Shown: positions 1,850-64,000 of the stretch, in pieces
Layout of the letters: each line of letters begins with the position of its first letter
How positions within the stretch are numbered: the stretch's first letter is position 1
Origin: Microbacterium sp. PM5
Lineage (GTDB): Bacteria > Actinomycetota > Actinomycetes > Actinomycetales > Microbacteriaceae
Assembly: GCF_003293595.1 (NCBI RefSeq)
Contig: NZ_CP022162.1
Location: 280,346-344,345, forward strand
Reading direction: 5' to 3'
DNA: 64,000 nucleotides
Notes under the pieces: model-generated
The model's database searches: none
Seen by the model: the letters and a program-made list of their open reading frames with translations, nothing else
What the model was told of the DNA's origin: nothing
Translations under genes and position numbers: made by a program

Positions 1850-1903
1850 CCCCACCGCCCGGTGATCACGAGCGTGGTCATGAGCGCCGAGCGTGTTTCG
1901 CGC

Positions 1904-2214: not shown

Positions 2215-2284
2215 CGCCGTCCGGCCCTCCCATCGCGCCCGCTCGGCGCGGCTTGCACTCGTCATGCCAGAGTGCCAGAATGAG

Positions 2285-2311: not shown

Positions 2312-3967
<1,656 letters not shown>

Positions 3968-6193: not shown

Positions 6194-6203
6194 CGCCCCG
6201 CGA

Positions 6204-6896: not shown

Positions 6897-6953
6897 AGCC
6901 CCATCCTGGCATCGCAACCCTTCCCTTTGCTGGATATCGGAGAAGATGGATGG

Positions 6954-7982
6954 ATGACGACGCCCGCGCCGCAGGTCCCCGTCCCCCCGTCGGCACCGCT
7001 GTTCGCACCCCCGACGCCGCCCGTCCCGCCCACGATCGTCCGCACGGCCCGCGCCCTCCCGGTCGACGCCGTGATCGGTGGTCTCGCCTTCCACCGGCTG
7101 AACTTCGCGCGCCGTCGGTCGGGATGGTGGACCCCGCTGGTGACCGGCATCCTGGGCCTCGCGATCTACCTCGGGTTCCTCGTGTTCGTCATGGTCGTCA
7201 TCGGGATCGCGCTCTTCCGCGACCCGGAGCGCCTGGACGACCTCGCACGCCTCGGTCAGTCGGGCGGCGTCGACATGGGCGACCCCCTCATGGTCGCGAT
7301 CCTGCTCGGGACGATCGCCCTCATGCTTCCGGCCTACATCCTCGCGTCACTGATCGTGAACGGACGCCGGGTCGGGCTCGTCTCCTCGGCCGCGGGACGG
7401 CTGCGCTGGCGCTGGATGCTGCTGTGCGGTGCGCTCGCCGTCGGCGTGTCCGCCGTGCTGACCGTGGTCGGTCTCCTCCTCCCCGGCGGCACGGAGGAGC
7501 CCGCGACGGGCGGCCCGGCCCCGACCTGGCCGATCACGCTCGTGGTCGTGCTGCTGCTCGTTCCCGTGCAGGCGGCGGCGGAGGAGTACATCTTCCGCGG
7601 GTACCTCATGCAGAGCATCGGGCGCTGGCTGCGGCATCCGGCGTTCGCGATCCTCCTGCCCGTGCCGCTGTTCGTCCTCGGGCACGGCTACGACCTGCTC
7701 GGTCAGATCGGCGTCGGCCTGTTTGCCGTCGCTGCCGGCTGGCTCACGTGGCGCACCGGAGGACTGGAGGCGGCGATCGCCCTGCACGTCGTGAACAACC
7801 TCTCGGCGTTCCTGCTCTCGCTCGCCTCCGGCTCCAGCCCCACCGAGAGTTCGACGGGACTGGTCAGTTTTCTGTGGTCGTTCCTGCTGATCGCCGGATA
7901 CGTCGCGATCGTCGAGTGGATGCTGGCGCGTCGTCCGCTGCCGCGCACGCTCGTCCTGCCGCCACCGGCTCCCGTGTGGTGA
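6954..7982 (+). CDS. CPBP-family intramembrane protease
   Basis: This 342-residue membrane protein has a proline-rich cytoplasmic start (residues 1-28) and about eight hydrophobic helices. The CPBP (Abi) motif EEYIFR contains E210, E211 and R215; H244 follows in GHGYD, and the final motif has H278 and N282 in HVVNNL. These are the metal-site residues of Rce1-type proteases. Members cleave prenylated proteins in eukaryotes and affect bacteriocin immunity in bacteria. The substrate here is unknown. It is divergent from the two-component operon with 57 bases between. Confidence 0.88.
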   Translation: MTTPAPQVPVPPSAPLFAPPTPPVPPTIVRTARALPVDAVIGGLAFHRLNFARRRSGWWTPLVTGILGLAIYLGFLVFVMVVIGIALFRDPERLDDLARLGQSGGVDMGDPLMVAILLGTIALMLPAYILASLIVNGRRVGLVSSAAGRLRWRWMLLCGALAVGVSAVLTVVGLLLPGGTEEPATGGPAPTWPITLVVVLLLVPVQAAAEEYIFRGYLMQSIGRWLRHPAFAILLPVPLFVLGHGYDLLGQIGVGLFAVAAGWLTWRTGGLEAAIALHVVNNLSAFLLSLASGSSPTESSTGLVSFLWSFLLIAGYVAIVEWMLARRPLPRTLVLPPPAPVW

Positions 7983-7983
7983 G

Positions 7984-9627: not shown

Positions 9628-9697
9628 AGCGTCCCAGTCTACCGACCTCGCAGCGGCGGGGGCTCGCGTCACCAGCCGTGCGTGCGCGTGCGGACGG

Positions 9698-11440: not shown

Positions 11441-11441
11441 G

Positions 11442-11732
11442 TCAGCGGCCCTTGCCGACCCGGGCCTTCCGCACGAAGGTCATGATGAGCACTGCCATGA
11501 GGAGGATGAACGCGACGATCGGCGCGATGTACACCAGCGTGCCGACCAGCGGCCACGCGCCCTGTCCGAAGTCGTCGTGCTTCATGCCCGCGGCCGAGCC
11601 GATCATGATCGCGACGAAGCAGATCACGGACAGCAGCAGCAGACCCAGGGACATGAACGCGAGGACGCGGTCGATGCGGCGGACGGGGAGATCGTCGGCC
11701 GAGTCGGGTGTGCGAGAAGACGAAGAGGGCAT
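11442..11732 (-). CDS. Small two-helix membrane protein
   Basis: This 96-residue protein has two hydrophobic helices, about residues 23-48 and 62-87, with a charged N-terminus and a basic C-terminus (VRKARVGKGR). It has no enzymatic motif. Similar proteins in Microbacterium are often annotated loosely as transporter-related, which the sequence does not support. The ATG at 11732 is chosen because the longer open frame upstream runs antisense through the second cold-shock gene. It is probably the first gene of the helicase operon. Confidence 0.7.
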   Translation of the reverse strand: MPSSSSRTPDSADDLPVRRIDRVLAFMSLGLLLLSVICFVAIMIGSAAGMKHDDFGQGAWPLVGTLVYIAPIVAFILLMAVLIMTFVRKARVGKGR

Positions 11733-11870
11733 CGGGATCACCCTACTGCGTCCCCGCGCCGGGCGTGGGGGTGTCGTAGGCTGGAGTGGGCATGATGCCC
11801 ACCCTCGTGCCCTCACGGCACGGGTCACGATGTCACCGCGCGCGAAGGCGCCGACGAGCGAGGTTTTGCG

Positions 11871-12254
11871 ATGCCCACCGGCAAGGTCAGGTTCTACGAC
11901 GACGAGAAGGGGTTCGGCTTCATCACCACCGATGACGGTCAGGACGTCTTCCTGCACGCCACGGCCCTCCCCGCGGGCACCGAGGGGCTGAAGGCCGGGA
12001 CGCGCCTCGATTTCGGCGTCGCCGACGGCAAGCGCGGGCTGCAGGCGCTTGCGGTGCGGGTGCTCGACGCTCCCGTCAGCCTCGCCAAGCGCAACCGGAT
12101 GAAGCCGGATGACATGGCGATCGTGGTCGAGGATCTCGTCAAGCTGCTCGACAAGGTCGGCGGCGACCTGCGTCACGGTCACTATCCGAACGCGGGACAG
12201 GGCAAGAAGGTCGCCGCGATCCTGCGCAAGGTCGCCGATGAACTCGACGCCTGA
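11871..12254 (+). CDS. Cold-shock domain protein with C-terminal extension
   Basis: This 127-residue protein has a cold-shock domain at 1-67 (RNP1 KGFGFI, RNP2 VFLHA) followed by a 60-residue basic helical extension (KRNRMKPDDMAIVVEDLVKLLD), unlike the 67-residue CspA at 2011. Such long forms are common in actinobacteria and probably bind RNA. The downstream DUF3027 gene starts inside its last codons, so translation of the two is coupled. The ATG has GCGAGG about nine bases upstream. Confidence 0.9.
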   Translation: MPTGKVRFYDDEKGFGFITTDDGQDVFLHATALPAGTEGLKAGTRLDFGVADGKRGLQALAVRVLDAPVSLAKRNRMKPDDMAIVVEDLVKLLDKVGGDLRHGHYPNAGQGKKVAAILRKVADELDA

Positions 12255-12837
12255 GTCGGTCGACTCCGGCGCGGATGCCGAGGGCGAGGCGCCGGCGCTC
12301 GTCGCCGACGACCGCCTGCTCGCGGCCCACGACCTGGCACTGTCCGCGCTGCGGGAGATCACGCCGGCGGCGACGATCGGCGAGCCCGCCGGATACACGG
12401 TCGAGGCGGACGGTGTCGTGTCGTTGCGCTTCGCCACCACGATGGAGGGCTACCCCGGCTGGTTCTGGACGGTGAGCCTGGCCGTCGTCGACGACGCCGA
12501 GCCGACGGTGCTCGAGGCCGAGCTCCTACCGGGCGAGGGTGCGCTCTTGGCTCCGGAGTGGGTGCCGTGGGCGGTTCGTCTGGCGGAGTATCAGGCCGCG
12601 CAGGCGGCGCTGGCCGCCGAACGCGGTGTCGAGGCCGAAGACGCCGAGGGCGTCGACGACGATGAGTCCGACGAGGAACTCGACGACGACGACCTCGACG
12701 ACGTGGATGATCTGGATGCCGCCGACTTCGACGACGACGGATCGCCGATCCTGCACGCCGGTGACGTCGACGGCGTCGACATCGACGTGCTGGACGACGA
12801 TTCCGACGAGGACGAGGACGAGGACGAGGAGGACTAG
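12238..12837 (+). CDS. DUF3027 protein with acidic tail
   Basis: This 199-residue protein has a DUF3027-type core at about 20-130 (YPGWFWTVSLA, then APEWVPWAVRLAEYQ) and a C-terminal tail of about 60 residues that is more than half Asp/Glu. The ATG at 12238 overlaps the cold-shock gene end by 17 bases in another frame, so expression is coupled. Function is unknown. An acidic disordered tail can mimic nucleic acid or bind basic proteins, which is only inference here. Confidence 0.85.
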   Translation: MNSTPESVDSGADAEGEAPALVADDRLLAAHDLALSALREITPAATIGEPAGYTVEADGVVSLRFATTMEGYPGWFWTVSLAVVDDAEPTVLEAELLPGEGALLAPEWVPWAVRLAEYQAAQAALAAERGVEAEDAEGVDDDESDEELDDDDLDDVDDLDAADFDDDGSPILHAGDVDGVDIDVLDDDSDEDEDEDEED

Positions 12838-12853
12838 CGGCGTTTCGTCTCGT

Positions 12854-12880
12854 GCCGGGGGCGCTCGCTCAATGACCGGG
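12854..12880. repeat. Half copy of an intergenic hairpin repeat
   Basis: These 27 bases match 48490-48516 at 24 positions (GCCGG, then CTCGCTCAA, then GACCGGG). The copy lies in the 45-base gap between the convergent DUF3027 and GH3 genes. Only the right half of the full element near 48.4-48.5 kb is present, plus a GTTTCG at 12842. Confidence 0.7.
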
Positions 12881-12882
12881 CG

Positions 12883-15144
12883 TCAGAGCACGACGTGGAA
12901 CCGTGCGCTCTGCAGGACCTCGTCGCGCGATGACGGACCGACCAGCAGGTCGAAGGCGCCGGGCTCGACGATCCGCTCACCACGGGCATCGACGATGGTG
13001 CAGGCGCGCACGGCGACGGCGAGTTCGACGGTGCGCTCCTCACCCGCCGCCAGCGTCACTCGTCGATATGCCTTCAGCTCCTTGTCCGCCCAGCTGGCGG
13101 ACGTCACCGCATCCCGCACGTAGACCTGCACGAGTTCGTCGACCGGTCGCATCCCTGTGTTGCGGACGGTCACGTGCGCACGCACCGTGTCGTCCAGTCC
13201 CACCTGTGAGGCCTCGAGCGCGGGAGGCCCGTATTCGACCGTCGAGTACGACAACCCTTCGCCGAAGACGTGTGCAGGGCGCTGTGTGAGGTCGGCGTAG
13301 CGATCGCCGTGCTGCCCGCGGAGCTGGTTGTAGTAGGTGGGCTGCTGCCCCACGTGCTCGGCGAACGAGATCGGCAGGCGTCCGCAGGGCTCGATACGGC
13401 CGAGCAGGAGTTCCGCGATGGCGCGTCCGCCTTGCATCCCGGGGTTCGCGACCCAGAGCAGGCAGCAATCGCGCACCGCCTCGGGGAGCACGAGCGGTTT
13501 GGAGGCCATGAGGACGACCACCACCGGCGTACCGGTCGCGACAAGGGCCTCCAGAAGTGCCGTCTGGGCGCCGATCAGCTCGAGCGTTGCGGTCGAGCGA
13601 CCTTCGCCGACCAGTTCGATCCGATCGCCGACCACCGCCACGACGACGTCGGACGCGTGCGCGGCAGCGACGGCCTCGGCGATCAGCTCCTCGTCGGGCC
13701 GGGCGGCAACGACGACACGCGGTCGGGGCTGTCCGTCGGGGAAGTGGGAGCCCGCAGGGTCGTCCTCCCACGTCAGAATGTCCGCGCCCCGCGCGTGCGC
13801 GAGTTCCCAGTCGGAGGGCAGCAGCTCGCGCAGGCCGTCGATCACGGTGGTGATCTGCGAGCGCGGCTGACCATCCGGCATCCAGTCCACCTGGCCCGAG
13901 GAGCCGGCCCAGTCGCCCAGCTGCGTCTGCGCGTCGTCGGCGAGCGGGCCGACGACGGCGATTCTGCGCGCCGGGGATCCGGCGCGCTCCAACGGGAGGG
14001 TGCCGTCGTTGCGGAGCAGGACGAGCGAGCGGCGCGCGACGTCGAGGTTGAGGGCCGTGTGCGCGGCGGTCGCTATGTTGTCGCTGATGCGCACCGCCTC
14101 GGGCAGGCGTGGATTCTCGAACAGCCCGAGCTCGAACTTCAGGGTGAGAATCCGCCGGACGGCCCGATCGAGGTCTCCTTCCGACAGGAGGCCGGCATCG
14201 ATCGCCGCCAGCGCCCCGTCGAAGAAGCCCGGTGTGGTCATGACCATGTCGTTGCCGGCGCGAATGGCCGCCGCGGCGGCGTGAGCGTAGTCGGGCTGTA
14301 TCTTCTGCTCCCACACCATGCGGCCGACGTTGTCCCAGTCGGTGATGAGTGTGCCCGTGTAGCCCCACTCGCCACGCAGCACGTCGTCCAGCAGCCAGTC
14401 GTTGACGGTGATCGGAACCCCGTCGGTGGTCTGGTAGCCGAGCATGAACGTCGCGCAGCCCTCGCGCGCGACGCGTTCGAACGGAGGGAGGAACCACGAG
14501 CGGAGCTTGCGGCGCGAGATGTCCGCTTCGCTCGCATCGCGCCCGCCCTGCGTCTCGGAGTAGCCGGCGAAGTGCTTCGCGGTCGCGAGGATCGCGGTCT
14601 CGTCGCGCAGTCCGCGTCCTTGGTAGCCACGGACCATGGCGCTGGCGAGCTCGCCGATCAGGAACGGGTCTTCACCGAAGGTCTCGCCCACCCGCCCCCA
14701 GCGCAGATCGCGTGCGATGCAGAGCACCGGTGAGAAGGTCCAATGGATGCCGGTCGCCGCCACCTCCGTCGCCGTCGCGCGGGCGACGCGCTCAAGGAGG
14801 TCGGGGTCCCACGTCGCGGCCATGCCCAGCTGCGTCGGGTAGATGGTGGCGCCCTCCCAGAACGAGTGGCCGTGGATGCAGTCCTCGGCGACGATCAGGG
14901 GGATGCGAAGACGCGTCTGGGCGGTCAACTCCGCGGCGCGCAGGACCTTCTCGGGAGAGGTGTGCAGGATCGAGCCGGCATGGCGCTCGAGGATGATGTG
15001 GTCCAGATCCTCGCGGGCGTCCCACTGCATCATCTGGCCGACCTTCTCGGCGACCGTCATCCGGCCGACGAGGTCGGCGACCCGGTGCGATACGGCAAGG
15101 GACGCGTCCAGGTAGGCGGCGGTGTCGCGGTCGATGAGGCTCAT
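12883..15144 (-). CDS. Glycoside hydrolase family 3 (beta-glucosidase-like)
   Basis: This 753-residue enzyme has a GH3 TIM barrel, with AKHFAGYSE at about 189-197 and the catalytic nucleophile D269 in LITDWDNV. A GH3 C-terminal alpha/beta domain follows, and a fibronectin III-like domain covers roughly the last 100 residues. It lacks a signal peptide, so it should hydrolyse imported oligosaccharides in the cytoplasm. It overlaps the upstream permease gene by four bases and is the last gene of the transporter operon. Beta-glucosidase or beta-xylosidase activity is likely; sequence alone does not separate them. Confidence 0.92.
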   Translation of the reverse strand: MSLIDRDTAAYLDASLAVSHRVADLVGRMTVAEKVGQMMQWDAREDLDHIILERHAGSILHTSPEKVLRAAELTAQTRLRIPLIVAEDCIHGHSFWEGATIYPTQLGMAATWDPDLLERVARATATEVAATGIHWTFSPVLCIARDLRWGRVGETFGEDPFLIGELASAMVRGYQGRGLRDETAILATAKHFAGYSETQGGRDASEADISRRKLRSWFLPPFERVAREGCATFMLGYQTTDGVPITVNDWLLDDVLRGEWGYTGTLITDWDNVGRMVWEQKIQPDYAHAAAAAIRAGNDMVMTTPGFFDGALAAIDAGLLSEGDLDRAVRRILTLKFELGLFENPRLPEAVRISDNIATAAHTALNLDVARRSLVLLRNDGTLPLERAGSPARRIAVVGPLADDAQTQLGDWAGSSGQVDWMPDGQPRSQITTVIDGLRELLPSDWELAHARGADILTWEDDPAGSHFPDGQPRPRVVVAARPDEELIAEAVAAAHASDVVVAVVGDRIELVGEGRSTATLELIGAQTALLEALVATGTPVVVVLMASKPLVLPEAVRDCCLLWVANPGMQGGRAIAELLLGRIEPCGRLPISFAEHVGQQPTYYNQLRGQHGDRYADLTQRPAHVFGEGLSYSTVEYGPPALEASQVGLDDTVRAHVTVRNTGMRPVDELVQVYVRDAVTSASWADKELKAYRRVTLAAGEERTVELAVAVRACTIVDARGERIVEPGAFDLLVGPSSRDEVLQSARFHVVL

Positions 15145-16163
15145 TCGGCATCCTTCGTATTCGGCGCTGCCGTCGTCGGCGTCGCCGTGCGGACCGCGGT
15201 GACGGCGCTCGTCGCCTTCAGGCCCTTCTTCCTCAGCGCGCGAGCACGCTCGCCGGCCGAGCGCAGTCGCGGGTTGACGTACTCGTCGATCCCGAAATTG
15301 ATCAGGGCGAGTGCGACCCCCAGCAGGGCGATGCACAGACCCGCCGGCACGTACCACCACCAGTAGTCGGGAAAGGCCGAGTTCTGCTGGGCCCAAAACA
15401 GGATCGTGCCCCAGTTGAGATTCGACACCGGGATCACTCCGATGAAGGCCAGCGTCGTCAGACCGAGCACCGCGGCGGTCATGGTGCCCACGAAGCTGGA
15501 GGCGATGATCGCCAGGAGGTTCGGCAGCATCTCGACCAGGATGATCCGGTGCAGCGGTTCGCCGTTCGCCCGCGCCGCCTGCACGAAGTCGCGGTTGCGC
15601 AGCGACATGGTCTGCGCGCGCAGCACGCGGGCGCCCCATGCCCACCCGGTCAATCCCAGGACGGCGGCGATGAGCACGAGCGGGGGGTCCTGGAACTGTG
15701 AGGCGATGATGATCATCAGCGGCAGCGCCGGAAGCACCAGGAACACGTTCGACAGCGCCGAGAGCGACTCGCTCTTCCAGCCGCGGAGGTAGCCCGCCGT
15801 CACCCCCACCAGGATGGCGACGACCGTGGCCATGATGGTCGCGAGGAAGCCGACGATCAGCACGCCGCGGGTGCCGTAGACGATCTGGCTGAACACGTCC
15901 TCGCCGATGTGCGTCGTGCCCAGCAGATGTTGAGCGGACGGAGGCTGCAGGGTCGCACTCAGATTCTGCGCCGTCGGATCGTAGGGAGCGATCACGGGCG
16001 CGAAGATCGCGACGAGCACGAAGACGGCGAGGATCACGAGGCCGGTCGCCGACTTCGGGTTCGCGAACATCGCCACCGACGCTCGGAGCTGGCGCAGAAA
16101 CGTGCGTCTGGGCGGCGCGGACGGCGACGCGGTGAGCACCGCGGCGGTTTCGGGGATCGACAT
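15141..16163 (-). CDS. Opp/Dpp-type ABC permease (DppC-like)
   Basis: This 340-residue permease begins with a cytoplasmic leader and an OppC_N helix at about 45-65 (ILAVFVLVAIFAPVIAPYD). About five further helices follow, with the EAA-type loop around RAQTMSLRNRDFVQAARANGEPL. It pairs with the DppB-like permease two bases upstream and overlaps the GH3 gene by four bases. In this family the ligand may be a peptide or an oligosaccharide. The glycosidase in the operon favours a sugar. The C-terminal 45 residues are a basic Ala/Thr-rich tail. Confidence 0.92.
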   Translation of the reverse strand: MSIPETAAVLTASPSAPPRRTFLRQLRASVAMFANPKSATGLVILAVFVLVAIFAPVIAPYDPTAQNLSATLQPPSAQHLLGTTHIGEDVFSQIVYGTRGVLIVGFLATIMATVVAILVGVTAGYLRGWKSESLSALSNVFLVLPALPLMIIIASQFQDPPLVLIAAVLGLTGWAWGARVLRAQTMSLRNRDFVQAARANGEPLHRIILVEMLPNLLAIIASSFVGTMTAAVLGLTTLAFIGVIPVSNLNWGTILFWAQQNSAFPDYWWWYVPAGLCIALLGVALALINFGIDEYVNPRLRSAGERARALRKKGLKATSAVTAVRTATPTTAAPNTKDAE

Positions 16164-16165
16164 GG

Positions 16166-17233
16166 TCAGGCCTCCGTCTCTCGGACGCGGGGGTCGAGGA
16201 TGGCGTACGCGACGTCCGCCAGGATGTTCGCGATCAGCACCGCGAGAACCAGCACCAGGAAGATCCCCTGCATGAGGGCGTAGTCCTTCGCGTTGGTGGC
16301 GTTGAGCAGCAGCAAGCCGATACCCGGATAGGAGAAGACCATCTCCATCACCAGCGTGCCGCCGACGATGAAGCCGAGCGCCAACGCGAAGCTCTGGATC
16401 TGGGGGAGTACCGCGTTGCGTGCCGCGTAGCGCCAGAGCACGCGGCGGTCGGGCAGGCCCTTCGCCTGGGCGACGGTGATGTAGTCCTCGTCGAGCACCG
16501 TCAGCATCATGTTGCGCATACCGAGCACCCAACCGCCCAGAGAGGCGATGACGATCGTCAACGCCGGAAGAGCAGCATGCGAGACCACCTGGCCGATGAA
16601 CTCCGCATTCCAGCCCGGCTCCACGCCCAACTCGTAGGCGTGCCCGGCGGGGAACCACCCGAGAAGCGTCGAGAACACAGCGATGAAGATGAGGCCCAGC
16701 CAGAAGTACGGCACCGTTCCGAGGAACGTCGTGATCGGCACGAGCACGTCGAGCCGTCCTCCTCGTCGCCATCCGATGACCGCGCCGAGCACGGTTCCCA
16801 CGACGAAGGAGAGGATGGTCGCCGTGCCGACCAGGCCCAGCGTCCAGGGCAGTGCCGAGCCGATCACGTCGCCGACGGGAGCCATGCCGCTGGAGATGGA
16901 GATTCCCAGGTCGCCCCGCAGCAGCATCCCCCAGTAGTTGACGTACTGAACCCACAGCGTCGTGGACGAGTCGAGGCCGAACATCAACCGCAGCGCCTTC
17001 TCGGCCTCGGGCTGCAACTGTCCACGGGCCTGCGCCATGTACGCGGTGACCGCATCGCCGCGCATCATGCGCGGGATGAAGAAGTTGATCGTGATGGCCG
17101 CCCACGCCGTGAACGCGTAGAACAGCACTCTGCCGCCGATGAAACGCCACGGAACCCGCATGCGTCCCCGTTCGGCACGGGTCGCGGTCGTGCCCACGAG
17201 CGTGGGATCGACGGTCGAGATGTCGCTGATCAT
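16166..17233 (-). CDS. Opp/Dpp-type ABC permease (DppB-like)
   Basis: This 355-residue permease has a first membrane helix at about 30-52, then five helices in the C-terminal two thirds. The EAA loop lies near LDEDYITVAQAKGLPDRRVL. The periplasm-facing segment carries ARGQLQPEAEKALRLMFGLD, typical of DppB/OppB proteins. The ATG at 17233 overlaps the upstream ATPase stop by four bases, so the two are translationally coupled. It forms the membrane channel with the DppC-like protein. Confidence 0.92.
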   Translation of the reverse strand: MISDISTVDPTLVGTTATRAERGRMRVPWRFIGGRVLFYAFTAWAAITINFFIPRMMRGDAVTAYMAQARGQLQPEAEKALRLMFGLDSSTTLWVQYVNYWGMLLRGDLGISISSGMAPVGDVIGSALPWTLGLVGTATILSFVVGTVLGAVIGWRRGGRLDVLVPITTFLGTVPYFWLGLIFIAVFSTLLGWFPAGHAYELGVEPGWNAEFIGQVVSHAALPALTIVIASLGGWVLGMRNMMLTVLDEDYITVAQAKGLPDRRVLWRYAARNAVLPQIQSFALALGFIVGGTLVMEMVFSYPGIGLLLLNATNAKDYALMQGIFLVLVLAVLIANILADVAYAILDPRVRETEA

Positions 17234-18042
17234 CGTTCACCTCCGGCGGCCGCAGCCGCTCGTCTGCGGAAGAACTTCTCCGGATCGGGAGATGCCGCAC
17301 GCAACTCCTGCGTGTAGGGATCGCGCGGCCGGAGGATGACGTCGTCCGCGGTTCCCCGCTCGACGACGCGGCCCTGATTGAGCACCATGATCTCGTCGCT
17401 GAAGTGGCGCGCCGTCGCCAGGTCGTGCGTGATGTACAGCACCCCCAGACCCTCCTCGCGCTGGAGATCGGCGAGGAGGTTCAGCACACCGAGACGAATC
17501 GACACGTCGAGCATCGACACCGGCTCATCGGCGATGAGCAGGGCCGGACGCGAGGCCAGGGCGCGCGCGATGGCGACGCGCTGACGCTGGCCGCCGGACA
17601 ACTCGTGGGGACGCCGCTCCATGACGACGTCGGGGTCGAGGCGCACACGCTCCAGCAGGCGGCGCACCTCGGCATCCGTCTCGCCGCGCGCCACCACGCG
17701 GTCAAGCCGCAACGGGCGCTCGATGTGGTGACGGATCGTGTGCGACGGGTTCAGGGAGGCGAAGGGGTCTTGGAAGACCATCCGCAGCTTCTGCCGATAG
17801 GCGCGCAGGCCCGCGCCGCGGCGGGGGATGGGACGCCCGTCCAGCAGCACCTCGCCGCGCGTGGGCACTTCGAGCTGGGTGAGGATCTTCGCGATGGTGG
17901 ACTTGCCGCTGCCGGACTGACCGACGAGTCCGATCGTCTGGCCGGCGCTCAGGCGAAAGCTGACATCGTCGAGCGCGGTGATGTGTCCCGCGCCGCGCAC
18001 GTTGTAGATCTTCGTGACACCGGCGACGTCGAGCGTCGTCAT
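17230..18042 (-). CDS. Opp/Dpp-type ABC ATPase (DppF-like)
   Basis: This 270-residue ATPase shows Walker A GQSGSGKST at 41-49, a Q-loop in VFQDPFASLNP, signature LSGGQRQRV, Walker B ALLIADEPVSMLD and the H-loop in ITHDLA. The C-terminus carries the oligopeptide-type extension (DPYTQELRAASP). It overlaps genes on both sides by four bases. With the DppD-like ATPase it powers the importer. Confidence 0.94.
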   Translation of the reverse strand: MTTLDVAGVTKIYNVRGAGHITALDDVSFRLSAGQTIGLVGQSGSGKSTIAKILTQLEVPTRGEVLLDGRPIPRRGAGLRAYRQKLRMVFQDPFASLNPSHTIRHHIERPLRLDRVVARGETDAEVRRLLERVRLDPDVVMERRPHELSGGQRQRVAIARALASRPALLIADEPVSMLDVSIRLGVLNLLADLQREEGLGVLYITHDLATARHFSDEIMVLNQGRVVERGTADDVILRPRDPYTQELRAASPDPEKFFRRRAAAAAGGER

Positions 18043-55633: not shown

Positions 55634-55705
55634 GCCTCTGTAGCTCAGTGGAAGAGCCACTCCGTCCTAAGGAGCGGGTCGGGGGTTCGAATCCCTCCAG
55701 GGGCA
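55634..55705 (+). tRNA. tRNA-Arg (anticodon CCT)
   Basis: A cloverleaf folds over 72 bases: acceptor GCCTCTG pairs with CAGGGGC, the D-arm is GCTC/GAGC, the anticodon loop GTCCTAA shows T before CCT, and the T-arm has GGTTCGAAT. CCA is not encoded. One A-C mismatch occurs at the base of the anticodon stem. It decodes AGG. The 3-prime end is a common integration site, and an integrase gene follows. Confidence 0.95.
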
Positions 55706-55912
55706 CATCTATTTTTTGCGCTTGACCAGGTTTTTCTTCCGATGTCAGACCTCACAGATTTCGTTTTTGGCCGCTATTTGGCCGCATTTGAGGAACCTAT
55801 GAGCTGAGAACGAGGCCCTCCAATGGGCTTCGTTCGACGTCCTAGAACGACGAAATCGGGCAGATTCGACGTCGCGAGCCTTGCCCGAAACTGAGCAATC
55901 TGCGCTCGGCGG
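55706..55912. other. Gap between tRNA-Arg and integrase remnant
   Basis: This 207-base stretch after the tRNA is visibly less GC-rich than the core. I see no gene in it. It includes the expected left attachment region at the tRNA 3-prime end. No second copy of the tRNA end was found inside the window, so the other island end should lie beyond 64000. Confidence 0.5.
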
Positions 55913-57044
55913 TCACTGCGGACGGCGGTAACGGGTCTGCGGACCCGTCGGCGACGCGAGCAGCGGCATGGCGTCGTTGAGGCGAGATGCGACGGCATCC
56001 AGATCGTCGTCGAAGAGGTCGGCATAGGTGTCGAGCGTCATCGCAGCCGACGCGTGGCCGAGCATCCGCTGCACGGCCTTCACGTTGGCGCCGGAGCTGA
56101 TCGCGAGCGATGCGGCCGTATGGCCGAGGTCGTGAGGCGTGAGCCGGGGGATGGACGGATCGATCATCTGCGCACGCTTCACCGCGTTCGCGAACCCATC
56201 CCTGCGCGCCCGAGTTGCGCATGTGATGGACCCCGTCGCCAAAGGGCAGCCCTTCCGGGCCCTTGCCGGCGCAGGCCAGCTCGATCATGGGCGCGAGGCG
56301 ATCGGGGTAGGGGACCGAGCGCTTCTCGTGCGTCTTCGGAGTGCCGACGTGGATTTCGTAGCCGGTCATCACCGCGTTCTCTTCGATGACGAAGCGCTTG
56401 CGCAGCCGGTTCACGCTGCGCACGCGCAGCCCGGTTGCCTCGCCCCAGCGCAATCCGGTGTACGCCAGCGTCAGGACCATGGTCGGGTGCGCCGAGCACG
56501 CCGCGAGTGTCGCCACCTGGTCGCGCGAGAGGTACACGCGGCGCTTGCCAGGCCCTGTCCGCGGCAGATTGCGAATGTTTCGAGCAGGGTTGGTTGCGAG
56601 GCGACGATCGTCGATGGCGACGTCGAGGATGCCGGCAAGGACGCCCAGGGCGCGAAGAACGACGGTGCGCGACCTCAGTGTCGAGAGCTCGGACACCCAC
56701 TCTTGAACCTCAGAGTGCCGGATCGACCAGATCTCCCGGTCCGCCCAGACCGGAGCGACGTGGTTGTTCCACGCCCGCTCGAGCGTCATGTAGTACGAGG
56801 GTTTTGACATCGGCGGCTGCTTGAAACGCAACCAGCTGTCCGCGAACATCCGAACCGTAACGCGCGAGGCGTTCGGGTCGATGTACTCGCCCCTCGACTT
56901 CGACACCGTGACCATCGAGAGGTAGAGCTGTGCTTCGCGCATCGTCGTGAAGCCGCGCTTCTGCGCCTCGCTGAGATCCGGCTTGCGGTAGCGCACGCGA
57001 TAGCGGCGGCCCTTTGCCGTCTCGTATGGCGTGATGGTGCCCAT
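55913..57044 (-). pseudogene. Tyrosine integrase, frameshifted and active-site mutated
   Basis: The reading frame from 57044 encodes an N-terminal AP2-like and SAM-like core and the first part of the catalytic domain, with the first catalytic Arg in TGLRWGEATGLR and Lys in TPKTHEKRSVP. Near 56209-56211 one extra base shifts the frame. The rest of the domain (HDLGHTAASLAI, GHASAAMTLDTYADLF) continues in the next frame to 55913. The HxxR arginine is also changed to Gly (codon at 56123-56125). It adjoins tRNA-Arg, as phage-type integrases do. The enzyme is probably inactive. Confidence 0.88.
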
Positions 57045-57644: not shown

Positions 57645-58856
57645 ATGTCGGAAGCCGAGCATACGATCGATGTTATGACCAAGACCCTTCGCATGATCGA
57701 CCTGTTCGCCGGTTGCGGAGGCATGACGGTCGGGTTCGCAGCAGAGGGATTCCGCTCTGTGCTCGCGGTCGAGTGGGATCGAGCGGCCGCGGCCACGTAC
57801 GCGGCAAATTTCGGTGAGGAACATGTGATCGCGGGAGACATCGCGCGTGTGCCTGACGAGGCCATCCCCGAGGCCGACATCATCATCGGCGGTCCACCCT
57901 GCCAGGGATTCTCGAACCTCGGGCTCAAGGACATCAATGACCCGAGAAATCAGCTCTGGCGTGAGTACATGCGGTTCGTGAAGCGGTCGCGTCCCAAAAT
58001 CTTCGTCATCGAGAACGTCGACAGGTTCGCGACGTCGCCGGAGTTCGCGATGCTGTTGGCGGAGACGGATCATGGCGCTCTGGCCGAGTACGAGCTCCAG
58101 CACGCGGTGCTCAACGCTGCTGACTACGGTGTGGCGCAACGACGTAAACGGACGATCGTCATCGGATCACGGATCGGTCGGATTGACCTGCCCGAACCCA
58201 CGCACGCGAAGGAGCCTGTCGAAGGATCGGGACTGCTGCCTTGGCGGACCGTCCGTGATGTTATCTCTGCCATCCCGCCGCGCCCTGCAACGACGGAACT
58301 CCCGGACAGTAGATCTGTGGTTTTCGGCGAGTCCATGCCGGGCGTCTTCCGCGGACTCGACCTTCACATCGGACGGACGCCGACCAGCAAGAGTCTCGAT
58401 CGATACAGCTTCGTCCCGCCGGGCGGAGGGCGATTCGACGTTCCGCGGGCCCTGCTGCCTAACTGCTGGGCGAACAAACCCACGGGAACGACAGACGTGA
58501 TGGGCCGTCTCCGTTGGGACGCACCATCCGTGACGATCCGGACCGAGTTCTTCAAGCCGGAGAAAGGGCGATACCTTCACCCGCAATGGGAGCCCGGTGA
58601 GTGGGTGGAGGAGTACGGTCAGTACCGCAGCGACCCGGTCCGATCGGTAGACCGAGTGATCAGCCACTTCGAGGCCTCGCTGATCCAGGACTTCCCGCCC
58701 GACTACCGTTGGGTCGGCACGAAGATTCAGATCGCGCGCCAGATCGGAAATGCCGTGCCCTCCGGCCTGGCCCGAGCGATCGCCCAGCAGATCAAGCCGC
58801 ACCTCCTAGCGCAGCGTGTTGCCGACGAGCAGGAGTTGGAGCTGGCGGTCGCTTAG
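57645..58856 (+). CDS. C5 DNA cytosine methyltransferase
   Basis: This 403-residue enzyme methylates cytosine at carbon 5 using SAM. Motif I is FAGCGG (21-26), motif IV GGPPCQGFS carries the catalytic C86, motif VI ENV is at 123-125, motif VIII is QRRKR and motif X is GNAVP near the C-terminus. The start may be ATG 57645 or ATG 57675; neither has a strong ribosome binding site. It is convergent with the NaeI-like endonuclease, overlapping at the stop codons. The recognition site cannot be read from sequence; a GCCGGC-type site is possible if the partner is truly NaeI-like. Confidence 0.95.
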   Translation: MSEAEHTIDVMTKTLRMIDLFAGCGGMTVGFAAEGFRSVLAVEWDRAAAATYAANFGEEHVIAGDIARVPDEAIPEADIIIGGPPCQGFSNLGLKDINDPRNQLWREYMRFVKRSRPKIFVIENVDRFATSPEFAMLLAETDHGALAEYELQHAVLNAADYGVAQRRKRTIVIGSRIGRIDLPEPTHAKEPVEGSGLLPWRTVRDVISAIPPRPATTELPDSRSVVFGESMPGVFRGLDLHIGRTPTSKSLDRYSFVPPGGGRFDVPRALLPNCWANKPTGTTDVMGRLRWDAPSVTIRTEFFKPEKGRYLHPQWEPGEWVEEYGQYRSDPVRSVDRVISHFEASLIQDFPPDYRWVGTKIQIARQIGNAVPSGLARAIAQQIKPHLLAQRVADEQELELAVA

Positions 58857-59851
58857 CCCCGCCTGGGCGTCTGCAGGTCCCACTCGATTTCAAGCTGAGC
58901 CGGGGTTACGTCGACCCGGGGCTGAATTTTCGATGGACTCACCGCTACCCATCCATCATCACCCAGCTCGAATCCGAGTTCCCTCGCTCGTAGACGGTCG
59001 GCGACCCATGTGCCGACCAGTACCTCAAGCCCGGACGTCGCGCGCACTGCGTCCTTCGCCTGTCTCGCGCGGCGCATTGGGTCCTTGTTCCCGAAGCACA
59101 CCGTCTCCATCGACGACCTGGGGATGACTGTGTCGGGTAGGAACCCGAAAAGTGCGGTCAGTCGTGCAGTTTGCCCTACCCTCGGCGCGAAAACTACGGC
59201 GAGTTGCTCGGGGGTGAGCTGGGCCAATGGTTCGGCGGGAAGCGGCGTCCAGTCGATCAGAGGGAGCGAGAACCGTCCGAGGGCGTCCGCAGCGATCCCA
59301 CGTTTCCGGTCCTTGTTCGCTCCGTCATTCAGCCAGATCCGGTGAGCGCGCATCAGGAATGCGCGGTGACGTCGCCCGGCAGCATCAGCCTGGATGAGCA
59401 CGCTGATCTCGCATTGGCCCTCAGTCGGGATCATCCAGTTCGAACGGACCGTGCCTTTTAGCTCGACCGGGATCCCAAGGATTCGCGTGTCGAGCGGTGG
59501 CTCCTTGTACAAACCCAGCTCGTTCAGAACGCGATACTGAAGTTTGGTGCCGACGGACGCTCGCTCGTCAGAGTCGACGTCGGGACTGAGTAAATCGAAT
59601 CGTCCGGTCCTCGCGCCGTCGAGCACGTACTTCACCGCGTCGTCGACGGCGCGCGTGAGTAGTCCGGGCAAAGGACGCGCAACGAGCCATGACCACACCT
59701 TCCTGAGCTCAGCGTCGTCCTCCGGGCCATGCGCAATGTGCGGAACGGACGCGTGCCCGCGCCGCTCGTCCGGCACACAGACGCCGCCTGGCGGTGGGAC
59801 AATCTTCTTCACGATCGTGACGCTATCGCACTCGTCGCGCAGCGTAGACAC
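58853..59851 (-). CDS. NaeI-like type II restriction endonuclease
   Basis: This protein of about 332 residues matches the NaeI family. A first segment has LDGARTGRFDLL, corresponding to the NaeI DGQRTGRW block. The PD-(D/E)XK core is DTRILGIPVELKG with E and K of the ExK pair. NWMIPTEGQCEISVLIQAD follows, as in the WMLPPES region of NaeI. A second DNA-binding domain is expected C-terminally. The GTG at 59851 is two bases from the vsr stop; GTG 59812 is an alternative. Its stop overlaps the methyltransferase stop by four bases. Confidence 0.8.
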   Translation of the reverse strand: MSTLRDECDSVTIVKKIVPPPGGVCVPDERRGHASVPHIAHGPEDDAELRKVWSWLVARPLPGLLTRAVDDAVKYVLDGARTGRFDLLSPDVDSDERASVGTKLQYRVLNELGLYKEPPLDTRILGIPVELKGTVRSNWMIPTEGQCEISVLIQADAAGRRHRAFLMRAHRIWLNDGANKDRKRGIAADALGRFSLPLIDWTPLPAEPLAQLTPEQLAVVFAPRVGQTARLTALFGFLPDTVIPRSSMETVCFGNKDPMRRARQAKDAVRATSGLEVLVGTWVADRLRARELGFELGDDGWVAVSPSKIQPRVDVTPAQLEIEWDLQTPRRG

Positions 59852-59852
59852 G

Positions 59853-60308
59853 TTAGTCGGGTAGTCCGAGTGATCTGCGCCTGCCACTGACAGCGGCCAT
59901 GACGCGCGCGGCGGCGTCGGCAACCGATTCGTGTTCCCAGATGCGGACTACCGTCCAGCCGCTGGTTTCCAGGGCTTGCGTTGTCTCCATGTCGCGAAGC
60001 CGGTTCCGCTTCAGCTTCGGCACCCAGTAGTCGACGTTGGTCTTGGGCACGGTTCCATGGATCGGGCATGAGTGCCAGAAGCAACCGTCGACGAAGACCA
60101 CGATGCGGAGACGTGTGAAGACGATGTCTGCGCGTCGTCGCCGATCCGGGCCTGGGGAATGGTCGACTCTGTACCTGTAACCCGCCGCATGCAGCATCCG
60201 ACGCAGCGCAAGCTCGGGACTCGTGTCGCGACCGCGGTTGGATCGCATCGATTTTGAGACGCGCTCTGAGCTCGCCCACGACGCCCGCGACGACCCCTGC
60301 TCTTCCAT
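59853..60308 (-). CDS. vsr: Very short patch repair endonuclease (Vsr)
   Basis: This 151-residue nickase repairs T:G mismatches that arise when 5-methylcytosine deaminates. The family signature RGRDTSPELALRRMLHAAGYRYRV is at about residues 25-48, ADIVFTRLRIVVFVDGCFWHSCPIHG at about 60-85 holds the catalytic Asp and His, and NRLRD and GWTVVRIWEHE follow. Its presence next to a C5 methyltransferase is expected. It is transcribed before the NaeI-like endonuclease. Confidence 0.95.
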   Translation of the reverse strand: MEEQGSSRASWASSERVSKSMRSNRGRDTSPELALRRMLHAAGYRYRVDHSPGPDRRRRADIVFTRLRIVVFVDGCFWHSCPIHGTVPKTNVDYWVPKLKRNRLRDMETTQALETSGWTVVRIWEHESVADAAARVMAAVSGRRRSLGLPD

Positions 60309-60708
60309 TTCGAGACTCTAGCGCCAGCTCGTCACCGCCGTAGCAGGCTCATCGATCGTTCCTGGAGCAAGGAGGGTCTGGGCCTGCATTACTAGGTGGT
60401 GCTCGCAACTGGCGTCGGTGGGTCGACCAGCACTTCGGAAGCACCGCATTCGAGACGTGTCGGCGACGTGCGTGACAGCGCGTTACCCGACATGCTGGCT
60501 GCCGGGCGAGCACTGAAGCTCTCATGTCGCCTCGCCCGCGGTGTCAGGCGCGACTTCGAGGAGCCGCGAGATCATGCGCGCGGGACGGTTACGCGTTGAG
60601 AAGAGCCCGATCCCGGATGCGTCTGGCGTATCGAGGCTACGTGTCCATAAGGCGAATATATCTGAAAAGGAGCTTGCGGAGAAGATAGAGTTACTGTATA
60701 GTCATCCT
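60309..60708. other. 400-base gap with promoter for the RHH-ATPase operon
   Basis: No convincing gene lies here. The first 300 bases show only short unconserved frames and may be decayed sequence. The last 40 bases hold the strong promoter described separately and are clearly AT-richer than the surroundings. Confidence 0.6.
60674..60702 (+). promoter_or_regulatory. Strong promoter, probably leaderless transcript
   Basis: A -35 TTGCGG (60674-60679) and a -10 TATAGT (60697-60702) are separated by 17 bases. The expected transcription start is at or next to the ATG at 60709, so the mRNA of the RHH gene would be leaderless. No ribosome binding site is present before that ATG. Confidence 0.75.
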
Positions 60709-61845
60709 ATGACCACAAGAGACGCAGATAGTGAACGCATCGTCAAAGTGCCGTTCCCGATCTCTCTGATAAGACGGATGGACGAGACGATCGTCGCCGA
60801 GCGCGGCGGCTTTCGCACTCGTGCGGAGTTGATGCGTGAGGCAGTTGAGAACCTCCTCGACGAACTCGACTATCCGGAGGCTCCTCCTGAGCGCAATTCT
60901 CACGGGCCGCTGCTGCTCGCCGACTCGGAGGTTTCCAAGAACGAACCTGAGCAATCGGCTGGTTTCACCGAGGCGCGCACGCTTTTCGCGAACCTCCCCG
61001 CCTGGGAACGCGAGGAGCTGGCTCTGGACGACCTGACCGCGACTACCCTTACCGCGCCCGAAGCGCGCCCGTTCATTCTGGACAGGGGCGAGGCATCGGT
61101 GGCGAACGGGCCGCTCCTTGGATTACACAACCGCGACTATGTGTCTATGTGGGCGCTGCACCGGCTCGCACGGTACACGGCCGACGGTCCCATCCCCTTT
61201 GAGGACTACCTCGGCCGCATCACGAAGGCCGCCTGGTACTACGGCGCTCAACTCCATGCGCTCGAGCGAAGCAATCCCGGCCGGAAGCTCACGGTGCTGT
61301 TCCCGACAAACTCGACGAAGCAACCGTCTGCGGAGCGAGGCTTCCAGAACTTCGCAATCGGCACGCTCGCGCGTCGTGTGGGTGAGGGGATCCCAGCGTC
61401 CGGGCCGCTCTTCGCATGGCAGGCTTTGCAGGTCTCGTCCGATAACGGCCTGGGCACTGGGCTCACAACGGCGGGCTGGCGCCTGCTCAAGGAGCTGGAC
61501 GGACTGTCGTTGGAGCTGCCCCACGATCCCGCGCTCATGGAGCGGTTCATGACCTACCTGGCCGAACACGCGCCCGGGGATCGCTGGGGGTTCGACCACT
61601 TGCTCGCCGCCGCCGCGGATGGACCCGACCGCCTGGCGCTCGTGAATCGTTTCCGGGAGACGCATCCCGAATGGAGTCCGGCGACGGCCAGCTCCGTAGC
61701 GCAGGGTTACGTGGCTCGCGCCCGAGAGTGGGGGCTCGTCGAGCCTCGCCTTATCGAGGGCCGCTACTGGCTAACGGATATCGGCCGGCAACTCCGGCGC
61801 GAATCCTCCCCAATCACCGCAACCAGCGAAGGAACACTCAAGTGA
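60709..61845 (+). CDS. Ribbon-helix-helix protein of unknown function
   Basis: This 378-residue protein has an N-terminal RHH DNA-binding domain at about 8-52 (IVKVPFPISLIRRMDETIVAERGGFRTRAELMREAVENLL). A long middle region follows that I cannot assign. A C-terminal part (about 270-360) looks like a winged helix (QGYVARAREWGLVEPRLIEGRYWLTDIGRQL). The gene begins directly at the promoter TSS and its stop overlaps the next start (GTGA), so the two form a coupled pair. It may autoregulate the operon or be the DNA-sensing partner of the ATPase. Confidence 0.8.
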   Translation: MTTRDADSERIVKVPFPISLIRRMDETIVAERGGFRTRAELMREAVENLLDELDYPEAPPERNSHGPLLLADSEVSKNEPEQSAGFTEARTLFANLPAWEREELALDDLTATTLTAPEARPFILDRGEASVANGPLLGLHNRDYVSMWALHRLARYTADGPIPFEDYLGRITKAAWYYGAQLHALERSNPGRKLTVLFPTNSTKQPSAERGFQNFAIGTLARRVGEGIPASGPLFAWQALQVSSDNGLGTGLTTAGWRLLKELDGLSLELPHDPALMERFMTYLAEHAPGDRWGFDHLLAAAADGPDRLALVNRFRETHPEWSPATASSVAQGYVARAREWGLVEPRLIEGRYWLTDIGRQLRRESSPITATSEGTLK

Positions 61846-64000
61846 CCAACACCAGCACCACCATCGCAAGCGTCGAGACCAAGATCATCGAGTCGGCGAT
61901 CAATGCGACGACGTACGACGACGCAGTCGCGGTCGCGGCGCTCATTGAGAGTGCTGTGGGAGCGCGCTATGTGCGTCCCATCGGCGACCGATACAACAAT
62001 TACGGGCTTATGGCCTCTAGCGGCTCATACGAGTACAAGGCCCTCGAGCCCGTCACCAACGAGCAGGACGGTGTGCTGGAGAGGCTCGCAGCTGCCAAGT
62101 GGGGTGATCTCAGCAAAGTCCCGTACCAGACGCCTGCCGAGGCTGCCGAGGACCTCCTTAGCGGCATGAATTACCAGCAGCGAGCCGACATGGTAACCGT
62201 CGCCTTCCGGGAGTCTGATAGCCCGACGCGCTCCTCCAAGCGGTTGACGATCGTCTACAGGGATCAAGGCTGTGGGATGGAGCCAGGGGCTATTCCTGGA
62301 ACTATCTTCGCTCTCGGTTCGAGCCACAAGATCGACACTAGGTGGCACCAAGGCGCGTTCGGCATCGGTGGCGCAAGCACCTATCGGAATGCGAAGGCCG
62401 TCGTGCTGGTGACTCGACGCGCGCCCGAGATGGAGCCGGCCGACGACCGCATCGCGGTGGCGGTCGTGTTGTGGGACGCCCATGGAAAGGGCCAGACAGC
62501 CTCCTACCTCGTCACCACTGACTGGGAAACGAACTCGGCGGCGCAGCCGTGGTCGGCGCCGGCCAGCGCCTACCCTCAGTTCGAGCCCGGCACCCATCTG
62601 GCGCTGGTGTCCTACGGTGTCGAGGGTTTCCACCGTGCCCGGTCCGGTGACGAGCGCTCGTTCGACATGGTGCTCAACACGCGCCTGTTGTCGCCCATCA
62701 TGCCCGTTCGTTTCACTAACGAGATTACGCGGGGGAAGAACGAGTACCTCCGCGGCCTCAGCAGACGGCTCGCCGACAACCCTAGCCCCGAGCGACTCGA
62801 GGACGACGAGGAGATGCTCTACACCTTCGGCGGCGTCAGCTACAAGCTGCCGGTGAGGTACTGCGTTTTTCCGACTGGGGACAAGGGGACTCGCCGCCGG
62901 TTCGTCGCCAAGGGCCATGCGCTCGTCTTCACGTCCAACGGTCAGGTCCACCACCATTGGACTCCGGCGGATTTCCGCCTGCGTACCTCGCTGAACAAGC
63001 TCTACGAGCGGATCTTCGTAGTCGTCGAGACCGACGACCTGCCCATCGAGCACAGGACGGCGTTGTTCACGCCGGACCGGTCACAGTTGCTGTCGAATGA
63101 GGCGGCGCTTCAACTCGAGGACCAGGTGGCGGACTTCCTGGATAACTGGCACAAGCTGCGCGAGCTCAACAACCAATTGGTCCGGGAGGCGATCTCGTCC
63201 GCGAGCGGGGGACGCTCCGCGCTCGACGTCGGCCGACGCATTGCCACGGCGCTGAAGGTCAAGGGTTTCAATCTCGGGGGATCCGGTGGATCCGCGGGAG
63301 GCGGGGCGACGGGCACCGGCGGCCCGCGGGTCCGGAAGAAGGTTGAGACCTACCCCGACCCGACCACCCTCGAGGGCCCAGACAAGCTCATCGTGGAGGA
63401 CGGCAAGGTGCGCTATCTCGAGTACATGCTGAACGCCGTCGACGACTTTCTCGACAGTGGGCGCGGCGCGCTGTCGTTCACGACCGACCATCCGGACATT
63501 AAGCCCTTGAAGCACATCGTGGTCGGTCGGCTTCGCGACGGCTACGTCCGTGTGCAGTTGCAAGTGCCCGAGGGAGCCACCGAGGGCGAGTTCACCCTGA
63601 CGGCTTCGCTTGACGGCTGGCACCGGGCGTCCGGCGGCATCGGATCGACGATGTCCTACACGACCGCTCTCGTAGTCGTCGACGAGATGCCTGGGAGGTC
63701 TGGCGGCGGCAACGGCCATGGCAGTGGCGGCGCCGGCGAGGGTGGTCAAGTGGCGGTGCTCTGGCAGACACCCGAGGAATACGGCAACGGCTGGAATAAC
63801 TCTGTTCCCGGAGGCGTGGACGAGATCGAGGCCGCAACACTCGCGTCGGAACGGGAGGAGTACAAGGAGCTGGCTAAGCTCGGCCAGCAGCGCATCCCGA
63901 CGATCGTGCTCAACAGCACTTATTCACCGTACAAGGGCTACATCCAGATGCGCGCCAAGGAGCTCACCGATACCGGCGCCCAGGAGGCGTCAGACCGCTA
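61842..64000 (+). CDS. GHKL (Hsp90/MutL-like) ATPase, runs off the window
   Basis: At least 719 residues are visible and no stop occurs. The Bergerat-fold motifs are an N-box EPVTNEQD (E69, N73, D76), G1 box DQGCGM at 141-146 and G2 box GAFGIGGAS at 171-179, as in MutL, Hsp90 and MORC proteins. A Gly-rich linker near 480-495 and another near 640 separate later domains I cannot name. The GTG start overlaps the RHH stop by three bases. Prokaryotic MORC-type GHKL proteins are known neighbours of restriction-modification genes, which fits this island. Confidence 0.85.
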   Translation, partial: MTNTSTTIASVETKIIESAINATTYDDAVAVAALIESAVGARYVRPIGDRYNNYGLMASSGSYEYKALEPVTNEQDGVLERLAAAKWGDLSKVPYQTPAEAAEDLLSGMNYQQRADMVTVAFRESDSPTRSSKRLTIVYRDQGCGMEPGAIPGTIFALGSSHKIDTRWHQGAFGIGGASTYRNAKAVVLVTRRAPEMEPADDRIAVAVVLWDAHGKGQTASYLVTTDWETNSAAQPWSAPASAYPQFEPGTHLALVSYGVEGFHRARSGDERSFDMVLNTRLLSPIMPVRFTNEITRGKNEYLRGLSRRLADNPSPERLEDDEEMLYTFGGVSYKLPVRYCVFPTGDKGTRRRFVAKGHALVFTSNGQVHHHWTPADFRLRTSLNKLYERIFVVVETDDLPIEHRTALFTPDRSQLLSNEAALQLEDQVADFLDNWHKLRELNNQLVREAISSASGGRSALDVGRRIATALKVKGFNLGGSGGSAGGGATGTGGPRVRKKVETYPDPTTLEGPDKLIVEDGKVRYLEYMLNAVDDFLDSGRGALSFTTDHPDIKPLKHIVVGRLRDGYVRVQLQVPEGATEGEFTLTASLDGWHRASGGIGSTMSYTTALVVVDEMPGRSGGGNGHGSGGAGEGGQVAVLWQTPEEYGNGWNNSVPGGVDEIEAATLASEREEYKELAKLGQQRIPTIVLNSTYSPYKGYIQMRAKELTDTGAQEASDR

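Follow-up and report, generated by a model that had tools for sequence, protein, structure and literature searches.

What does a ribbon-helix-helix (RHH) protein do in one operon with a large GHKL ATPase, close to a restriction-modification system? The question is raised by the end of a 64,000-nucleotide stretch of the Microbacterium sp. PM5 genome, here called the window, which covers positions 280346-344345 of a 3.16-Mb single-contig genome. A first-pass annotation suggested that these two genes could be a methylation-aware anti-phage module. The coupled RHH-GHKL pair exists in two phyla, and the ATPase family is linked to DNA-modification genes beyond random placement. The family is apparently undescribed; its probable role is that of an accessory machine in epigenetic phage defence. 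That the operon in the window encodes an accessory ATPase of DNA-modification-based defence is the reading we prefer, with belief and doubt about evenly balanced.

The operon and the sequence in front of it consist of the following features.

60674-60702, plus strand: possible leaderless promoter, TTGCGG-17-TATAGT, read by eye.
60709-61845, plus strand: RHH protein of 378 residues, N-terminal RHH and a body of about 230 residues (roughly residues 135-365).
61842-64000 in the window (stop at 64184), plus strand: GHKL ATPase, 780 residues in full, from motifs and alignment.

The ATPase starts with GTG at 61842 inside the sequence GTGA, so that it overlaps the RHH gene by 4 bp, and AAGGA is found upstream. 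The translational coupling that had been proposed is supported, and the pair recurs near a C5 methyltransferase in another phylum (see below). The final 184 bases (61 codons) of the ATPase open reading frame (ORF; 61842-64184) lie past the window end. More operon genes had been suggested there. Since the next genes are on the other strand, the operon consists of two genes and ends with the ATPase. The mechanical ORF of the RHH gene is 60541-61845, with ATG at 60709 as the best-fitting start. The candidate promoter has TTGCGG at 60674-60679, a 17-bp spacer, TATAGT at 60697-60702, and 6 bp to the ATG. It was described at first as a strong leaderless-type promoter; the leaderless geometry is there, the strength is not, with 8 of 12 consensus positions matched and 0 sites in a consensus promoter scan. 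The pattern TANNNT-6-ATG occurs five times in the window when both strands are counted.

The second phylum is Dormibacterota. A contig of a metagenome-assembled genome (MAG) of this phylum (L017) carries a C5 methyltransferase, an HNH nuclease on the other strand, an RHH protein, and an ATPase, and its RHH and ATPase genes overlap in ATGA. Identity to the window proteins is 41% for RHH and 46-47% for GHKL, and the two ATPases are sisters in the FastTree phylogeny (support 0.897). The RHH assignment comes from a Pfam RHH_1 match of 16.5 bits (below the 20.5 cut-off) and weak PHROGs matches (phrog_38461, E = 0.0017), and is supported further by an N-terminal pattern common to the window and L017 proteins. 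Both full-length RHH homologues found adjoin the ATPase. With the RHH alignment as query, two of 396 genomes are matched, the window's own and G441, and of 201 only the Dormibacterota MAG; there was no match in a Mycobacteriaceae MAG that has the ATPase, and the RHH protein was found in no plasmids or phages. In G441, a draft genome, about 230 residues like the body of the RHH protein exist without RHH, C-terminal to a MASE1-histidine kinase (locus L040, 738-3506). The body is fused there to another GHKL-type protein, and the ATPase profile search of the same-phylum sample did not match G441. Therefore, the body is a module of its own. Profile comparison of the body by hhalign gave nothing significant against DUF4007 or against eight neighbour proteins (one shuffle each). 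Co-occurrence of the two proteins thus holds for the full-length RHH homologues and fails for the body in G441 and, as discussed later, for most ATPase loci.

Pfam, PADLOC, NCBIfam, and PHROGs have no model that matches the window ATPase at E <= 1. Its relatives were scanned with Pfam only; HATPase_c_3 is reached at E <= 0.1 by 7 of 16 members, mostly below its cut-off, with one of them, the L007 member, above it. The alignment consists of 18 members (the L015 member has no N-terminus and the L031 member has the first 213 residues only). All 18 share E69, N73, and D76, then D141, G143, and G145 (DxGxG), K163, G171, and G176. The N, G1, and G2 boxes are thus intact, as first annotated, and with the lid lysine also present the motifs place the protein in the GHKL superfamily. 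The N-terminal GHKL part is followed by a region with NGQ and LFxxxR motifs, a Gly-rich linker, a part that is possibly beta-rich (a low-confidence prediction), and a conserved C-terminal region. G367, Q368, F409, and R413 are found in all 17 members that reach that region, and N366 in 16 of them. The invariant R413 and the NGQ motif would fit an S5-fold domain with a basic finger. When a profile of 16 members was compared with PDB, six of the eight sub-significant matches were GHKL proteins (MORC4 first, four Topo VI-B, and one Hsp90), while an earlier four-member profile had 11 sub-significant matches, none of them GHKL. Past residue 430, conservation reaches or exceeds 70% in hydrophobic, Gly, Pro, Trp, Asn, and Tyr columns and in one Asp column; no Glu, Lys, His, or Arg column reaches that level. 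The single acidic column is Asp in 12 of 16 and is aligned to N531 of the window protein. Because of this composition there is no sign of a built-in nuclease, and the family as aligned appears free of nuclease-like conservation.

The family is known from 19 loci: the window, L006, L007, L013, L014, L015, L016, L017, L028, L029, L030, L031, L032, L033, L034, L035, L036, L037, and L050. They come from tblastn in plasmids, one scan of genome contigs, and protein and profile searches of genome samples. With the protein as query, the ATPase is found in 1 of 297 genomes of the same order, the window's own, and in none of the 12 other same-genus genomes of that sample. With profiles, it is found in 4 of 396 genomes of the same phylum, in 4 of 201 genomes of the phylum to which the Dormibacterota MAG belongs, and in 3 of 298 genomes of the Mycobacteriaceae MAG's order. 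These counts include the window's own genome, the Dormibacterota MAG, and the Mycobacteriaceae MAG, respectively; one of the 3 matches in 298 is doubtful, lies inside a 12,646-residue frame, and was dropped. The last genome sample gave 4 of 186, three of them already in the set. L050 (genome G716) was found by the profile alone, after the alignment and the chance count described below, and is left out of the alignment. No relatives were found in phages, nor in viral contigs in three scans (two with the ATPase and one with the RHH alignment).

What do these loci have in common? Two of them (L016 and L031) were dropped from the neighbourhood count as their contigs end too near. In 13 of the 17 assessable loci there is a modification gene within 6 kb: a C5 or N4/N6 methyltransferase, SspBCD, or a DISARM set. 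C5 methyltransferases are near the ATPase in the window, L006, L017, L036, L037, and L050, four of which are arranged as follows.

L006 (Rhodococcus plasmid): C5 methyltransferase, NgoMIV, and Vsr.
L036: C5 methyltransferase; an HhH-GPD glycosylase is beside the ATPase.
L037 (haloarchaeal plasmid), 5143-17334: ATPase gene between the C5 methyltransferase and the DISARM genes DrmA, DrmB, and DrmC.
L050 (G716): C5 methyltransferase, GHKL, and Vsr genes adjacent, the C5 methyltransferase within 200 bp.

L050 also has an N4/N6 methyltransferase overlapping an Eco29kI-family nuclease (1648-3563), about 3 kb from the ATPase. N6_N4 methyltransferases are found in L014, L028, L029, and L030, and SspB, SspC, or SspD in L007, L032, and L033. 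Among nine genomes found by homology, with the window's own left out, five have a methyltransferase (PF01555 or PF00145, gene pieces merged by eye) within 5 kb of the ATPase; 0.094 are expected and P = 5.7e-9 under random placement, an assumption that tells against our reading since defence genes cluster and the real contrast is therefore smaller. These are not loci of housekeeping chaperones or topoisomerases, an outcome that had been named as one that would speak against a defence module. Some of these loci have other genes. VapC-like PIN ORFs were seen by eye in L029 (9726-10382) and L030 (11165-11575), and VapC pairs are annotated in L032 (12521-13191) and L033 (17760-18388, more than 7 kb away). 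Small DUF559/Vsr-like ORFs, also seen by eye, are near the ATPase or methyltransferase in L030 (6826-7194 and 4234-4527) and L028 (5064-5609).

The protein encoded directly upstream of the ATPase is not the same everywhere. The RHH-body protein is the partner in the window and L017. The L028 partner has an Mrr_N match of 52.5 bits (over the cut-off) and a sub-threshold match to SeqA_N, which we take to be RHH-like. The L014 and L031 partners are related helix-turn-helix (HTH)-like proteins, 40% identical over 72 residues, one of them with a sub-threshold HARE-HTH match. In L006 it is a DndB-family protein. The ATPase of this Rhodococcus plasmid is sister to that of the Mycobacteriaceae MAG (support 0.989), whose contig ends upstream of the ATPase, so that the upstream gene is not visible there. 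No common ancestry of the different partners was detected by hhalign.

In the Microbacterium genome, the operon is preceded by these features.

55634-55706, plus strand: tRNA-Arg (CCT), found by ARAGORN; likely integration site of the island.
55842-57044, minus strand: tyrosine integrase (Phage_int_SAM_3, 26.8 bits), apparently frame-disrupted; its C-terminal part is in another frame (55913-56242), the break being read by eye.
57645-58856, plus strand: C5-cytosine DNA methyltransferase of 403 residues (PF00145, 206 bits).
58853-59923, minus strand: NaeI-family restriction endonuclease (PF09126, 99.4 bits), start codon uncertain.
59853-60308, minus strand: Vsr very-short-patch mismatch endonuclease (PF03852, 66 bits; TIGR00632, 129.3 bits).

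GC content drops from about 0.70 to 0.61-0.65 just inside the tRNA-Arg gene and recovers about 16 kb further on. From the tRNA to about position 71 kb in window numbering it is 0.61-0.65, compared with 0.67-0.70 outside. With this low GC and the disrupted integrase at the tRNA end, the stretch is a defence island. Direct repeats of at least 14 bases sought from the first 1.2 kb at its tRNA end gave a single chance-like match. The Pfam and NCBIfam matches agree with the first-pass annotation of a C5 methyltransferase, a NaeI-like nuclease, and Vsr, and the first two are both parts of a type II restriction-modification system of the NaeI kind. The methyltransferase is 61% identical to the Rhodococcus one adjoining the NgoMIV enzyme and 43% to the L017 one. 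Its specificity is predicted to be GCCGGC from its partner nucleases. This site is not depleted in the window (115 seen, 121.7 expected), and a PDB search with NaeI gave no match. On the opposite strand 3' of the ATPase there are a NERD-domain ORF and two overlapping genes that match no family (L003:9978-12060, minus strand), possibly a further defence operon, and then a diverged uracil-DNA-glycosylase-family gene (L003:12262-12957, minus strand; PF03167, 42.8 bits). A Dsr1-like SIR2 defence gene follows on the plus strand in two ORFs (L003:12789-16499, about 67443-71153 and past the window end); it is probably disrupted, as the middle part of the Dsr1 profile is unmatched.

Similar methyltransferases are found in 16 plasmids, six of which were viewed (L006, L041, L042, L043, L044, and L045). 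From these six it follows that this methyltransferase type pairs with varied nucleases and with varied GHKL accessories or none. In L042 (Arthrobacter p2MP), a MORC-type ATPase (HATPase_c_3, 72.8 bits) exists with the related methyltransferase instead. The genes for the C5 methyltransferase, a 1096-residue sacsin-like protein, the MORC-type ATPase, and an annotated PD-(D/E)XK protein are in one run there (6001-13098). Judged from these cassettes, the RHH-GHKL pair appears to be an accessory that the restriction-modification system does not need.

Is this one of the known GHKL systems? It is already known that GHKL ATPases exist in restriction-modification loci (PMC2292703; PMC8011034). For MORC and paraMORC proteins in restriction, DNA looping was proposed by Iyer et al. 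2008 (PMC2292703). Like the window family, prokaryotic MORC is a GHKL ATPase whose gene neighbours include C5 methyltransferases, Vsr, and restriction nucleases (PMC2292703). However, by strict motif the family is not MORC proper: GhXhhpXXRhl (PMC2292703) is found in 0 of 18 members (L031 is too short) and in the one positive control, the p2MP MORC-type protein, and a loose form occurs once among the 18, outside the S5 motif region. A superfamily II helicase is in the operon in about 70% of MORC cases (PMC2292703), while none is next to the window pair; DrmA is beside the L037 relative. An alignment of the family profile with the p2MP protein is not significant (E = 0.083). Because it puts the LFxxxR stretch exactly on the MORC motif, LFxxxR is possibly a diverged counterpart of that motif and distant kinship is possible.

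The paraMORC1-5 families, likewise varied GHKL proteins, have C-terminal extensions and occur near restriction-modification genes. In outline they take in the present case, but an RHH partner or a link to Ssp or DISARM is not described in the accessible portion of PMC2292703. paraMORC3 has a C-terminal RE-fold nuclease with E-D-ExK, and no such conserved columns exist past residue 430; paraMORC4 has a C-terminal TIR, and there is no TIR match in Pfam. For the HxH feature of paraMORC5, compared by description only, the window protein has HHH at 370-372, with H370 in 11 of 17 members and H372 in 6 of 17. The ATPase may prove to be one of these published families. VcSduA, a paraMORC3-like Shedu type I-D protein, is a GHKL ATPase that acts in phage defence (PMC12137116), and a defence role for a GHKL protein has thus been shown elsewhere. 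It differs in having its own PD-(D/E)xK nuclease (DUF4263; PMC12137116), as opposed to the present family without nuclease-like conservation and, in the window, with a separate DNA-binding partner. HEF_HK / Response_reg_2 is also a two-gene GHKL unit beside type II restriction-modification, a C5 methyltransferase, and Vsr (PMC8011034). Its partner is response-regulator-like, and no PF19191 or PF19192 match is found here. Relatives of the ATPase are located in DISARM and SspBCD loci, but no drm or ssp genes are next to the window pair. GHKL proteins are not named in the accessible portions of the DISARM- and Ssp-related papers PMC10853773, PMC12839542, and PMC12458937. A type II toxin-antitoxin system, i.e., a short antitoxin with a toxin of known fold, does not match proteins of 378 and 780 residues without a toxin family match. 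The first-pass annotation knew of no described system with this RHH partner, and none was found among the open-licence papers that the searches listed (main texts), nor was the ATPase family or its Ssp/DISARM reach. One listed paper with GHKL is PMC13373217, and no paper with both HARE-HTH and GHKL was found.

In MutL, topoisomerases, and MORC, which are GHKL proteins that have an S5 domain, ATP serves for the rearrangement of partners and DNA. By analogy with the superfamily, the window ATPase would dimerise on ATP and form a clamp or loop on DNA, as do MutL, Topo VI-B, and MORC. The RHH protein would bind DNA and recruit the ATPase, and what the pair does would depend on how the neighbouring methyltransferase has modified the DNA. 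Unmarked incoming DNA might then be held or compacted, which would let NaeI-type cleavage and host nucleases do their work, or its use might be blocked directly; cleavage, where any, would be by enzymes other than the ATPase. Dimeric clamp, DNA binding, methylation awareness, and anti-phage effect are all predictions drawn from the superfamily. Several points weigh against this reading in addition to the clustering of defence genes. Only 2 of 19 ATPase loci have the RHH partner; in the other 17 no RHH homologue is recognised or none could have been seen. A recognisable DNA-binding protein is directly upstream in only 6 of 19. The sequences themselves give no evidence on whether the ATPase binds DNA or whether methylation is sensed. 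Both AlphaFold models, of the RHH protein (pLDDT 34.8, two-sequence alignment) and of the L017 ATPase (pLDDT 39.3, three sequences), are too poor to show an S5 fold or the fold of the partner, and for this reason no fold search was made. Two further points, methyltransferase cassettes that lack the ATPase and loci without a modification gene, also favor another explanation, namely that the operon is an independent module that shares islands with restriction-modification genes but senses and stops phages alone, its neighbourhood being due to defence-gene clustering. Of the 16 plasmids with a similar methyltransferase, the ATPase searches matched the Rhodococcus one and none of the other 15, and such methyltransferases are seen without the ATPase in L041 (NgoMIV, Vsr), L043 (Vsr), L044 (HNH, Vsr), and L045 (HNH). 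No modification gene is found at 4 of 17 loci (L034, L035, and the short or one-sided contigs L013 and L015). An independent module is also favored by the three Ssp loci, where 2-5 kb separate the ATPase from the modification genes and the strands differ in two of three, and by the Dsr1-like SIR2 gene and the NERD ORF in the window island. On the other hand, a methyltransferase is 200 bp or less from the ATPase in L028, L029, L030, and L050, and the L037 gene is placed between the C5 methyltransferase and DrmA-DrmB-DrmC. An independent module is thus clearly possible, if rather unlikely.

The RHH protein could also be the repressor or antitoxin of a harmful ATPase in a toxin-antitoxin-like or self-limiting abortive module. 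An RHH gene that comes first, overlaps the next one, and has a promoter right at its start is the usual layout of toxin-antitoxin-type operons, and the window pair has this order, the 4-bp overlap, and a possible promoter at that place. Yet the ATPase has 780 residues without nuclease-type conservation, the long extra body of the RHH protein recurs in the histidine-kinase fusion, and relatives pair with DndB-like or HTH proteins or have no recognised partner, all of which make such a module improbable. Still less probable is a regulator or mismatch-repair helper of restriction-modification, e.g., a protein that works with Vsr as MutL does where 5-methylcytosine has been deaminated. MutL-Vsr cooperation has been described (PMC2292703), Vsr is found next to the ATPase or no more than 6 kb away in the window, L006, and L050, and the L036 glycosylase would suit such a role. 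However, no ATPase is beside Vsr in L041, L043, and L044, and the ATPase is also found with N4/N6 and phosphorothioate systems, where repair of 5-methylcytosine would make no sense.

Returning to an accessory ATPase of modification-based defence, the relatives would use the same ATPase with other marks (N4/N6 methylation, phosphorothioate) via other DNA-binding adaptors. A wider form of this reading may be put forward, tentatively and as one that we doubt considerably more than we credit. One GHKL family would be the common effector engine for different self-marking systems (5-methylcytosine, N4/N6, and phosphorothioate; type II, DISARM, and Ssp), and exchangeable adaptors (RHH-body, Mrr_N-like, HARE-HTH-like, and DndB-like) would read the mark. 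Eukaryotic MORC relatives are linked to silencing. In L014, L028, L029, and L030, the ATPase itself would be the interference step, a nuclease-free topological silencing of unmarked DNA and the prokaryotic counterpart of MORC silencing. No restriction endonuclease family is seen next to the ATPase in these four methyltransferase loci; the small nuclease-like ORFs near L028 and L030 weigh against a nuclease-free engine. Since the window ATPase matches none of the models in the searched releases of Pfam, PADLOC, NCBIfam, and PHROGs, model-based defence finders may pass over this family. With its intact ATPase motifs, its lack of nuclease-like conservation, and its repeated links to several DNA marks, the family would be a test case for whether DNA is restricted by ATP-driven clamping in prokaryotes, and for how different marks would be read through swapped adaptors.

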